A DNA stretch of 64,000 bases, taken from assembly GCF_000013405.1 (NCBI RefSeq), contig NC_007759.1, positions 2,481,001-2,545,000 on the forward strand, in the 5' to 3' direction. How positions within the stretch are numbered: position 1 is the stretch's first letter; every line of letters begins with the position of its first letter. The stretch is from Syntrophus aciditrophicus SB. GTDB lineage: Bacteria; Desulfobacterota; Syntrophia; Syntrophales; Syntrophaceae. The translations under genes were made by a program, and so were the position numbers. This document shows positions 38,290 through 46,917 of this stretch, piece by piece. The notes beneath the pieces are model-generated. The model saw only the letters and a program-made list of their open reading frames with translations. It did not search any database and had not been told where the DNA came from.

Positions 38290-40701
38290 ATGCATAATCC
38301 CATAAACCATGAAGATCTTGGTTTTTTTGCACTGAAACAGGGGCATTTCCCGGAAGCTGTCAATATCTTCCGGCGCGCCCTCGATGAAAAGAAGACAGCC
38401 CGGGCCTATTTTGGTTTTGGAATTGCCCACGACAGGCTGGAAGACTTTCCGACTGCCCGCTGGGCCTATTACAAGGCCCTGGACATCGATCCCCAAAGCG
38501 TGGAGATTCAGCAGCACATCGATGAAGTGGACAGACGTATCGCCGCCCTTGCGGGCAGTTCCCATCCGAAGCGGCGCGAAGTGCGATTCAGGGCCTTGAA
38601 GGACACCTTCGAAGTCTTGACCGGCAGAACCTGGAAACCTCTTTTTGTCAAGGCCATCAATCTCGGCCTCGCCCCTCCCGGCTCCTATCCCGGCGAATAT
38701 GCCATCCGGAAAGGAACCTACCGGGCCTGGTTCGAACAGATGCAGGCCCTCGGCTTCAACGCAGTCAGAATCTACACACTCCACCCACCGGCTTTTTACG
38801 AAGCGCTTTACGAATTCAACGAAAAGCGCGGGAAGCTGTTTCTTCTGCAGGGCATCTGGGCGGAGCTTCCAGATAACGGCGATTTTGGTCACGACCTTTA
38901 TCTTCGCTATATCAGACAGCAGATCACCGAGGCCGTGGATGGCGTTTTCGGCAGCGGCTCCCTCCCTGAACGTCCGGGCTATCCGCATGGAACCTATACC
39001 TGCGACGTTTCTCCCTGCACGCTCGGATTTATTGTGGGCAGAGAATGGGAAAGCTGCCCCGTTGCCGCCTTCAACAGCAAAGAAGGGAGAAGGCTGAACG
39101 ATTCTGACGGCTCCTTCATTCAAGTTTCGGCAGGCACCCCCTTCGAGAACTGGATCGGCCGGATAGGCGACTTTCTGCTCGGCTATGAGTCGAGCCGTTA
39201 CGGGACAGTCCATCCCCTTTCAACGATCTGCTGGCCCACGCTGGATCCCCTGGTTCATCCCTCGGAATCCCGTTATGAGGATGATCTTCACCGCCAGGGA
39301 CAGCGCATCCGCACAGAGGGATGCAACGAAAATGAAGACGTCGAATCTCTCGATCCGGCAAAGTTCAAGGTGAAGCAGGGGGCGGGTTTTTTCGCCACGT
39401 ACCATGCCTACCCTTACTATCCCGATTTCATGAACAACGATTATCTCGATGACGAAACGCCCTACCTGTCTTATCTCTCCAATCTCAGGCGGCGCCATGG
39501 CAGACAGCCGGTCATCATCGGTGAATTCGGCGTTCCTTCCAGCAGGGAGGTGTCCCACTGGCATGTGAAGGGCTGGCACCACGGCGGCCACAACGAGGTG
39601 CGTCAGGGCGAAATCAACGGTGAGATGATGCTGGCGATCCACCGCGCGGGACTGGCGGGCGGGGCTGTGTTCAGCTGGTTTGATGAATGGTTCAAAAAAA
39701 ACTGGCTTTTCATGGCCTATGAACTGCCGCCGGATCGCAATGCGCTCTGGTTCAATTTCCAGGACGCGGAGCAGAACTATGGCCTTATCGCCGCTTATCC
39801 GGGCTATCCGGGCAGGATGGTTTCCCTGTCCGGCAACCGGGAAGAGTGGCAAAACGCAACGCCCCTGTCCCGCAAGGAAGGTCCTCCGCTCTTCCTGTTC
39901 GACGACGGGGGCGATGACGCCCGCACCCTGGCGCGTCTTGCGGCTCAGCATGACGAAGGGTTTTTTTATCTGAGGCTGGAAACGCGGGGTAAAATCGATT
40001 TTTCCAAGGCCCATTATGTGATCGGACTGGATACCTGCGATCCTTCAGCAGGCGAGTTTGTCCTTCCCTTCAACCTCAATGTCACCAGTCCTTTGGGATT
40101 GAAATTTATTATTCATCTCTGCGGCGCGGAGAGAAGCCGGATCCTCGTCTGTCCTGCCTACGATAAATATCTGAACGCCGCAAGGCGGGAAATCCATCCG
40201 GGCAGATCCTTTGAGGGGGCCTGGATCGTCATGCAGAACAGACCCAATGTCCGCCGCACCAGCAAGGACGGACGGCGCTTCTATCCATCCCGGGTCGTCC
40301 CCATGAGCAATCTCAGACAGGGCAGCCTCGACCCGAATCACCGACAATACGATTCCCTCGCCGATTTCTTTGTCAGTGAAACCGCCATTGAACTCCGCAT
40401 CCCCTGGGGGCTCATCCAGTTTACCGACCCAAGCTCGAAAACGGTACTCTGGAAGAAGGGCGCTGAAGAAACCCGGAAGACCGACGGTATCCGGGCTATT
40501 GCCTGCTCCTTCAAGCCGGAAAGTCAAAGCATGGCCGCCGTGCCAACCGGGCGGAACTTGAATGCCGCCGACATGCTGCCCTTGAGCGGCTCGCCGTCAC
40601 AGACATACACATGGAAGGAATGGGATACTCCCCTTTATCATTTTTACACCAAACGCAGCGCGGGCATCTATCAGCGCTACCTCGAGAAGCTGCCGTCATG
40701 A
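38290..40701 (+). CDS. TPR plus glycoside-hydrolase-like barrel protein of the exopolysaccharide locus
   Basis: 803 residues, no clear signal peptide. About 1-90 is TPR-like (GHFPEAVNIFRRALDEK, DFPTARWAYYKALDIDP). About 110-520 looks like a (beta/alpha)8 glycosidase barrel: FVKAINLGLAPPGSYPGEY, FNAVRIYTLHPPAFYEAL, VGREWES (possible acid/base), FATYHAYPYYPDF, VIIGEFGVPSS (possible nucleophile Glu) and AVFSWFDEW. About 550-800 is beta-rich (FFYLRLETRGKIDF, AIELRIPWGLIQF), like a carbohydrate-binding or DOMON-type sandwich. ATG 38290 is the only start in the frame after an upstream stop. Its last bases overlap the deacetylase start. Probably trims or handles the polymer; the missing export signal makes its location uncertain. 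Confidence 0.75.
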   Translation: MHNPINHEDLGFFALKQGHFPEAVNIFRRALDEKKTARAYFGFGIAHDRLEDFPTARWAYYKALDIDPQSVEIQQHIDEVDRRIAALAGSSHPKRREVRFRALKDTFEVLTGRTWKPLFVKAINLGLAPPGSYPGEYAIRKGTYRAWFEQMQALGFNAVRIYTLHPPAFYEALYEFNEKRGKLFLLQGIWAELPDNGDFGHDLYLRYIRQQITEAVDGVFGSGSLPERPGYPHGTYTCDVSPCTLGFIVGREWESCPVAAFNSKEGRRLNDSDGSFIQVSAGTPFENWIGRIGDFLLGYESSRYGTVHPLSTICWPTLDPLVHPSESRYEDDLHRQGQRIRTEGCNENEDVESLDPAKFKVKQGAGFFATYHAYPYYPDFMNNDYLDDETPYLSYLSNLRRRHGRQPVIIGEFGVPSSREVSHWHVKGWHHGGHNEVRQGEINGEMMLAIHRAGLAGGAVFSWFDEWFKKNWLFMAYELPPDRNALWFNFQDAEQNYGLIAAYPGYPGRMVSLSGNREEWQNATPLSRKEGPPLFLFDDGGDDARTLARLAAQHDEGFFYLRLETRGKIDFSKAHYVIGLDTCDPSAGEFVLPFNLNVTSPLGLKFIIHLCGAERSRILVCPAYDKYLNAARREIHPGRSFEGAWIVMQNRPNVRRTSKDGRRFYPSRVVPMSNLRQGSLDPNHRQYDSLADFFVSETAIELRIPWGLIQFTDPSSKTVLWKKGAEETRKTDGIRAIACSFKPESQSMAAVPTGRNLNAADMLPLSGSPSQTYTWKEWDTPLYHFYTKRSAGIYQRYLEKLPS

Positions 40702-46917: not shown

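Follow-up and report, generated by a model that had tools for sequence, protein, structure and literature searches.

What does the five-gene cluster at positions 38290-46917 of a 64,000-nucleotide stretch of the Syntrophus aciditrophicus SB genome (hereafter, the window) encode, and is it one of the characterized polysaccharide secretion systems? The genome is closed, at 3,179,300 bases, and the five open reading frames (ORFs), all on the plus strand, encode a glycoside hydrolase-like protein (GH), a polysaccharide deacetylase (DAC), a HEAT-repeat protein, a family 2 glycosyltransferase (GT) and a putative outer-membrane protein (OMP). The original prediction, made from the sequence alone, described these five genes as an undescribed synthase-dependent exopolysaccharide system with a HEAT-repeat subunit; all five genes are in place, and the set recurs in 10 related genomes. 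The cluster presumably secretes a polymer. Our preferred reading, to which we assign a probability of roughly two in three, is that it represents a distinct class of synthase-dependent polysaccharide systems in which the HEAT protein is the cytosolic scaffold or regulatory subunit of the synthase, and the GH together with the deacetylase, exported by twin-arginine translocation (Tat), constitutes a split PgaB.

The defining core of the cluster is the HEAT-GT pair. The linkage was assessed in 61 loci, namely, L014, L015, 17 loci from the phylum of the window (its own included), 30 loci from Bacteroidota and 12 of the 16 plasmid matches. An ORF ends at the GT in 60 of these loci (none was called in L053); 58 of the 60 end between 20 bases inside and 54 bases before the GT start, taken as the first matched base or the annotated start, and the other two end 71 and 123 bases away. 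Pfam HEAT_2 matches 57 of the 60 upstream ORFs at E 0.01, including that of the window; one of the three non-matches must be that of L024, a spurious ORF, with the real HEAT gene located 1.4 kb further upstream (L086). The best 30 loci of PgaC-like GT2s, identified with TIGR03937 in the same phylum, served as the control; three of these PgaC score above the TIGR03937 cut-off. With a HEAT profile built from the positives, 47 of 48 family loci, but none of the 30 control loci, were found to have a HEAT-family ORF no more than 1.5 kb from the GT. Pfam HEAT was detected in none of the 16 control upstream ORFs; GHL13, the PgaB-type hydrolase, matches three of these 16, including the ORF of L119. 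Both controls rule out that HEAT and GT2 are paired by chance. Furthermore, the GT and HEAT distances are strongly correlated (r 0.785, n 57; the maximum of 2000 Mantel permutations was 0.141), which implies joint inheritance. In the window, an ATGA at 43242-43245 joins the HEAT stop codon to the GT start codon, with GGAGG just upstream, as anticipated by the original prediction of translational coupling between the two genes. Taken as gene linkage, these observations suggest that the HEAT protein and the GT are in physical contact. The HEAT protein goes with the GT rather than with an exporter, because the archaeal and Bacillota loci opened showed no outer-membrane partner next to the pair, and because in diderms this partner varies between the OMP family of the window, YaiO and other TPR proteins; the YaiO model, TIGR04390, matches 7 of the 28 proteins scanned.

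The GT (P0004) contains the DAD motif at 171, ED at 279-280 and the predicted QxxRW motif, as QRRRW, at 322, and four hydrophobic segments were called. With this combination of DxD, ED and QxxRW motifs and membrane helices, the cluster belongs to the synthase-dependent polysaccharide systems in the broad sense, processivity of the GT being predicted from its sequence. In the alignment of 51 family GTs (one per locus, fragments excluded), the interval between the NDG and NGGK motifs spans 65-71 residues in all 51 proteins, compared with 43 residues in Escherichia coli PgaC and YaiP and 39 in NfrB. The family GTs contain an insertion of about 23 residues, with the core motif T-x-P-[VI]-[RK]-G-x-Y-x-S, that is absent from these three E. 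coli proteins. By a cruder, regular-expression measure, the interval is 28-43 residues in 14 of the 30 controls and 29-33 residues in the three above-cut-off PgaC, which lack the long insertion. The window thus has the two features by which we define the HEAT-GT2 class, a HEAT gene directly upstream of a GT2 and a long insertion in the latter. The GT ORF of L117 has 1,144 amino acids, and open frames of 1,135-1,279 amino acids occur in some Bacteroidota, with L064 and L066 also among the loci concerned; given this length, the GT is fused to a further part.

The complete set is conserved beyond the window, and the HEAT-GT pair is far more widespread. A scan of genome contigs yielded four loci, only two of them close family members, and when 297 genomes from the window's phylum were searched with the GT profile at E 1e-60, 17 were recovered, own included. 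All five families occur together in 10 related genomes that belong to five taxonomic families besides that of the window. Eight of the 16 other loci from the profile search (L083, L084 and L086-L091) hold the full set, seven of them in the order HEAT-GT-GH-DAC-OMP; in L087, GH-DAC-OMP is divergent from HEAT-GT. L015 (from the same taxonomic order as the window) has the arrangement GH-DAC-GH16-HEAT-GT-OMP, and in L014 GH and DAC are divergent beside HEAT-GT-OMP. The remaining loci are partial: L085 contains HEAT, GT and GH before the contig ends, L092-L094 contain only HEAT-GT-OMP, and L095-L098 have HEAT-GT without this GH or DAC, with weak or no matches to the OMP profile. In L083 the HEAT gene and in L089 the OMP gene are split into two ORFs each, and the displacement of HEAT from GT in L086 was noted above; each of these cases might reflect either decay or assembly error. 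The distribution of the cluster is sporadic because, among the own genome and 59 relatives, full-length HEAT orthologues (48 percent identity) were limited to two genomes, both from a single further genus of the order, with weak partial matches in two further genomes and nothing at E 0.001 in three congeneric genomes.

Family loci were identified in Desulfobacterota, Bacteroidota, Alpha- and Gammaproteobacteria, Deinococcota, Bacillota and Halobacteria; the loci from Pseudomonadota, Bacillota, Deinococcota and archaea all stem from plasmid records. The family GT is present in 40 of the 148 sampled Bacteroidota genomes at E 1e-60, counting the centre genome (the presence of HEAT was assessed in the 30 loci returned), and in one of the 115 genomes of the phylum sampled around a Verrucomicrobia genome. 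Among plasmids, 16 records match the GT at 1e-30, and none was retrieved at 1e-5 when HEAT alone was the query. Of the 12 records opened, three from Halobacteria and two from Bacillota among them, 10 have HEAT annotated directly upstream of the GT; in Paenibacillus and Emticicia it was found by profile. The pair thus sits on haloarchaeal plasmids as well. In Halosolutus, it is followed by genes for a nucleotidyltransferase and GlmS, and in Legionella adelaidensis it is surrounded by epimerase-family genes and a gene for a nucleotide-sugar dehydrogenase. In Bacteroides finegoldii, a DUF4838 protein (L076:10267-12420) follows HEAT-GT-hypothetical, and in Arenibacter an unannotated ORF of 716 amino acids (L017:8017-10167) occupies the same place; these proteins are a possible Bacteroidota counterpart of the GH.

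The GH was predicted to be a TPR/glycosidase-like protein, and this description holds for the repeats and for the modelled fold, without a Pfam match to any glycosidase. The N-terminal TPR region matches TPR_16 with E 4.1e-7 and 30.8 bits, just under the Pfam cut-off of 32.7. Pfam gives no match for residues 96-803 at E 1, the sole NCBIfam match of the protein is at E 0.29, and no PDB sequence is retrieved at E 10 with a profile of the barrel part; consequently, the GH may represent a new glycosidase family. An AlphaFold2 model built from 12 sequences (pLDDT 75.1, pTM 0.76; an earlier model from three sequences, with pLDDT 41.8, was not usable) predicts a TIM-barrel fold. The top structural match of this model, both by Foldseek and by Z score, is LaGH157, a structure solved with laminari-oligosaccharides (Z 29.7, root-mean-square deviation 2.8, 308 aligned residues, 16 percent identity), and a GH158 laminarinase and Gel4, of the GH72 type, are also among the matches. 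The GH thus resembles the beta-1,3-glucan enzymes of the GH157, GH158 and GH72 type in its predicted fold, but differs from GH157-type enzymes in its low sequence identity and in the lack of PDB sequence matches to the family profile. Because the other GH157 entries (Z 26.2-26.8) overlap with GH2 enzymes (glucuronidases; Z up to 26.8), we limit the claim to a clan-type fold and make none about specificity. Glu252, Glu254 and Glu412 are invariant in the 12 GH sequences and are candidate catalytic residues. In L015, a GH16 gene (L015:4995-5867; Glyco_hydro_16 E 1.3e-25) lies between DAC and HEAT; together with the fold of the GH, this neighbour hints at beta-1,3 linkages in the polymer, whose sugar may be an acetylated (amino)sugar, judging from the presence of the deacetylase.

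The DAC (P0002) is a deacetylase by Polysacc_deac_1 (E 3.8e-19), with PgaB as the best PDB match (E 1.1e-21). The original prediction placed deacetylase and hydrolase on separate proteins, and indeed P0002 is at most 299 amino acids long and matches only the deacetylase part of PgaB. Its longest ORF starts at 40611; however, the ATGA at 40698-40701 combines the GH stop with a DAC start, which makes 40698 the likelier start. The two proteins together look like a split PgaB. The DAC had been further described as a Tat lipoprotein: the twin-arginine motif is present (DRRTFLK), whereas the lipoprotein assignment is weak, the cysteine context being GQAC rather than a canonical lipobox and the lipobox pattern occurring in none of the 11 family DACs.

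How would the GH join the DAC outside the cytosol? No signal peptide was detected in the GH of the window, and among the 11 relatives from the same phylum that have the GH, 10 likewise lack one. A missed upstream start that would supply one was rejected: upstream of the window's GH there are 23 open codons with none of the usual start codons and a hydropathy that peaks at 1.13, and in the signal-less relatives the hydropathy does not exceed 0.98. In 10 loci, the window's own and those of nine of the ten relatives with the full set, the GH lacks a hydrophobic N terminus; in all 10 the DAC has twin arginines, and eight of these 10 DACs fit RRx[FLM]. The reverse case is L014, where the GH has a signal and the DAC lacks the twin arginine. 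This pattern suggests that the signal-less GH leaves the cytosol as a folded partner of the Tat-exported DAC; given that there is a single reverse case, among related genomes, co-export is only a lead. Alternatively, the GH might be a cytosolic enzyme that acts on a precursor or some other glycan, outside the periplasmic machine, in keeping with the lack of signal peptides and the N-terminal TPRs; we regard this as unlikely, albeit far from negligible, given that a hydrophobic N terminus is seen in the GH of L014 and in the homologues encoded next to HEAT-GT in Paenibacillus, Deinococcus and Planococcus (those of Paenibacillus and Planococcus being weak matches to the GH profile, 289 and 156 bits versus 522-1500), and that the GH gene is coupled through the ATGA to the gene of an exported deacetylase.

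In keeping with the original prediction, the HEAT protein of the window is a putative membrane protein, with a HEAT_2 match at E 4.8e-23 and a single N-terminal hydrophobic helix. Such a helix is detected by hydropathy in 52 of 57 HEAT proteins, the other five falling under the hydropathy cut, and the flank after the helix is the more basic one in 50 of these 52, with a tie in two and a reversal in none. Because of this charge bias, the HEAT solenoid is predicted to be cytosolic and hence on the same side of the membrane as the GT active site. A receiver domain is encoded in the ORF just upstream of HEAT in 15 of the 31 cases scanned (five of 36 ORFs were excluded as GH, a HEAT fragment or shorter than 95 amino acids). 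The possibility that the HEAT protein serves solely in the folding or assembly of the GT, without any role in catalysis or control, would be compatible with the tight translational coupling, which fits co-translational assembly, and with the far lower conservation of HEAT compared to GT (48 versus 71 percent identity); nevertheless, the recurrence of receiver-domain genes beside HEAT suggests a signal input, and we consider a pure folding role quite unlikely.

The preferred reading, of HEAT as a scaffold or regulatory subunit in a distinct class of systems, further requires comparison of the cluster with the characterized loci. PgaABCD/HmsHFRS, which produces poly-beta-1,6-N-acetylglucosamine (PNAG), shares with the cluster a QxxRW GT2, a PgaB-like deacetylase, a TPR and barrel protein and a glycosidase-like function, and the original prediction drew the parallel with PgaA, PgaB and PgaC. 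The best NCBIfam matches are indeed PgaC_IcaA (TIGR03937) for the GT and PgaB for the DAC, but the scores are far below the cut-offs (114.4 versus 422.3 bits and 137.5 versus 321.9 bits, respectively), and the OMP scores 64.7 bits against the PgaA cut-off of 366.65, in the TPR region only. The cluster also differs in its separate deacetylase and GH, the latter without a match to the PgaB hydrolase model, in the presence of the HEAT protein and the GT insertion, and in the absence of PgaD: TIGR03940 has no match in the whole genome at E 0.1, as had been anticipated, and in a control search the model found matches in 6 of 14 genomes including E. coli, above the cut-off in one. The OMP (P0005), predicted to be a TPR/beta-barrel exporter, has strong TPRs, and its barrel is indicated by weak matches; the barrel profile aligns to PgaA with probability 5.7 and E 0.0067, and to YaiO with probability 0.4. 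Plain Pga membership was rejected on the three scores, the single-domain DAC and the missing PgaD. A divergent PNAG system, with a PgaC-like synthase, a split PgaB, a PgaA-like exporter and HEAT in place of PgaD, would account for the best matches of the GT and DAC, for the proximity of the DAC to PgaB structures and for the GT-PgaC profile alignment (E 7.1e-25); we find it improbable because these scores fall so far under the cut-offs, the control upstream ORFs include GHL13 but no HEAT, the three above-cut-off control PgaC lack the long insertion, the GH has no Pfam match, PgaD is missing from the genome, and the barrel is unlike that of PgaA.

The cluster does not belong to the other systems tested either, in line with the claim that it is not an already characterized one. 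NfrAB-YbcH of E. coli likewise combines a GT2 with an outer-membrane protein to make an exopolysaccharide, but NfrB contains a MshEN domain and no insertion, whereas P0004 has the insertion and no MshEN-type domain among its Pfam matches at E 0.01. The C-terminal MshEN domain of NfrB, which binds cyclic di-GMP (c-di-GMP), is described in PMC8669469, in the available text of which the word HEAT does not occur. The E. coli yaiO-yaiP-yaiS locus shares a GT2, a barrel protein and an annotated deacetylase with the cluster, and YaiO-type barrels accompany HEAT-GT in other lineages; however, this stretch has no HEAT gene, YaiP lacks the insertion, and TIGR04390 is not among the matches of P0005. No HEAT gene is present in the annotated E. 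coli pga and yai stretches or in the nfrA-nfrB stretch (ybcH lies outside the latter). Cellulose synthesis (Bcs) was rejected at 58.3 bits for the GT versus the CelA/BcsA cut-off of 699.1. The xagABCD operon of Xanthomonas was also considered, and the available text of PMC4643136 and PMC3609779 on it mentions no HEAT protein; in an operon survey of synthase-dependent systems the words HEAT and YaiO are absent from the available main text (PMC7112194). A search of the open-licence literature for "HEAT repeat" with "PgaC" and "operon" gave no match, and no description of a HEAT-GT2 polysaccharide system was found among the matches listed, so that "undescribed" appears to be apt within that literature. 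Finally, it is improbable that the GT decorates a lipid or protein with single sugars or short chains, with HEAT helping to recruit the acceptor and the barrel and GH as accessories: HEAT solenoids commonly bind proteins, HEAT-GT has no annotated exporter beside it in archaea and Bacillota, and an LTA-synthase-family neighbour is found in Emticicia, but the QxxRW motif and multiple transmembrane helices are typical of processive synthases, secreted polymers are usually accompanied by a deacetylase, a hydrolase and a TPR/barrel protein, and YaiO-type barrels go with the pair in several diderm groups.

Several observations weigh against the assignment of the cluster to a distinct class with a HEAT subunit and a split PgaB. 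All the contacts and activities that we propose are inferred from gene content, overlaps, co-occurrence and motifs. This GH and DAC are missing from seven of the 16 other phylum loci, three of which keep the OMP, and the OMP barrel has no firm family match. The GH could be cytosolic; the GH/DAC Tat pattern covers related genomes only and depends on a single reverse case, and two of its DACs, in L088 and L089, have SRRETL, that is, RRETL instead of the classical RRxFL, admitted by a looser pattern. No receiver gene adjoins the HEAT gene of the window. With respect to the controls, the profile behind the 47 of 48 versus 0 of 30 count was derived from the positives, the Pfam count being independent; in six of the 30 control loci the GT ORF extends through the whole 1.5 kb upstream, and no upstream ORF was called in 14, these six included. 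The Mantel correlation still includes shared species history.

Under the preferred reading, the GT2 would polymerize a nucleotide sugar at the inner membrane, and the chain would pass through the GT's own helices, as judged from its family. The HEAT protein, predicted to be anchored by one helix with the solenoid in the cytosol, would act as a scaffold and on/off subunit by binding to the GT-A domain, for which the family-specific insertion is a plausible site; the CheY-like receiver encoded beside HEAT in many other lineages is the likely input. In the periplasm, the Tat-exported PgaB-like deacetylase would modify the chain, and the TIM-barrel GH would trim or remodel it; the signal-less GH would cross through Tat in a complex with the deacetylase, and two chains would thereby do the job of the two domains of PgaB. 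The TPR/barrel protein would then export the chain across the outer membrane. A broader proposal, which we advance tentatively and with the odds somewhat against it, is that HEAT-GT2 is an old, unrecognized class of bacterial and archaeal synthases, with the HEAT solenoid docked on the GT-A insertion and a phosphorelay through the CheY-like receiver, rather than c-di-GMP, switching synthesis, and that in the phylum of the window the Tat-deacetylase carries the signal-less glycosidase out as a two-chain PgaB.

Table 1. Features of the cluster in the window
Feature	Coordinates	Strand	Description
GH	38290..40701	+	N-terminal TPR region, clan GH-A-like predicted TIM barrel (~96-540), C-terminal beta-rich region; no signal peptide
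DAC	40698..41510	+	PgaB-like CE4 polysaccharide deacetylase, twin-arginine signal; ATGA overlap with GH
DAC-HEAT spacer	41511..41979		469 bases; no plausible PgaD-like ORF
HEAT protein	41980..43245	+	N-terminal transmembrane helix (residues 6-24), basic flank, HEAT solenoid predicted cytosolic
GT	43242..44690	+	GT2 synthase-like, DxD/ED/QxxRW; family-specific insertion at ~residues 111-136; 4-base overlap with HEAT
OMP	44806..46917	+	Hydrophobic N terminus, TPRs, C-terminal predicted outer-membrane barrel (~residues 426-703)

Two neighbouring regions were also inspected. Convergent with the OMP gene, at 46963-52396 on the minus strand, are genes for a MacB-like permease, an ABC ATPase, an HlyD-type adaptor, an outer-membrane efflux protein and a TetR/CecR regulator. 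The ORF at 37621-38028 (plus strand) contains an in-frame TGA at 37828-37830 that, if read as selenocysteine, gives HKFC-U-GPSSLAMTLDEPKENDT; the product resembles HesB-like selenoproteins, and the read-through translation has no Pfam match at 1e-5.

The best-known synthase-dependent systems are few and are mostly switched by c-di-GMP. If the preferred reading is correct, a synthase with a near-constant cytosolic HEAT partner would add to these systems a class with another control logic, and would provide a function for many proteins that are currently named only 'HEAT repeat domain-containing protein' or 'glycosyltransferase'.

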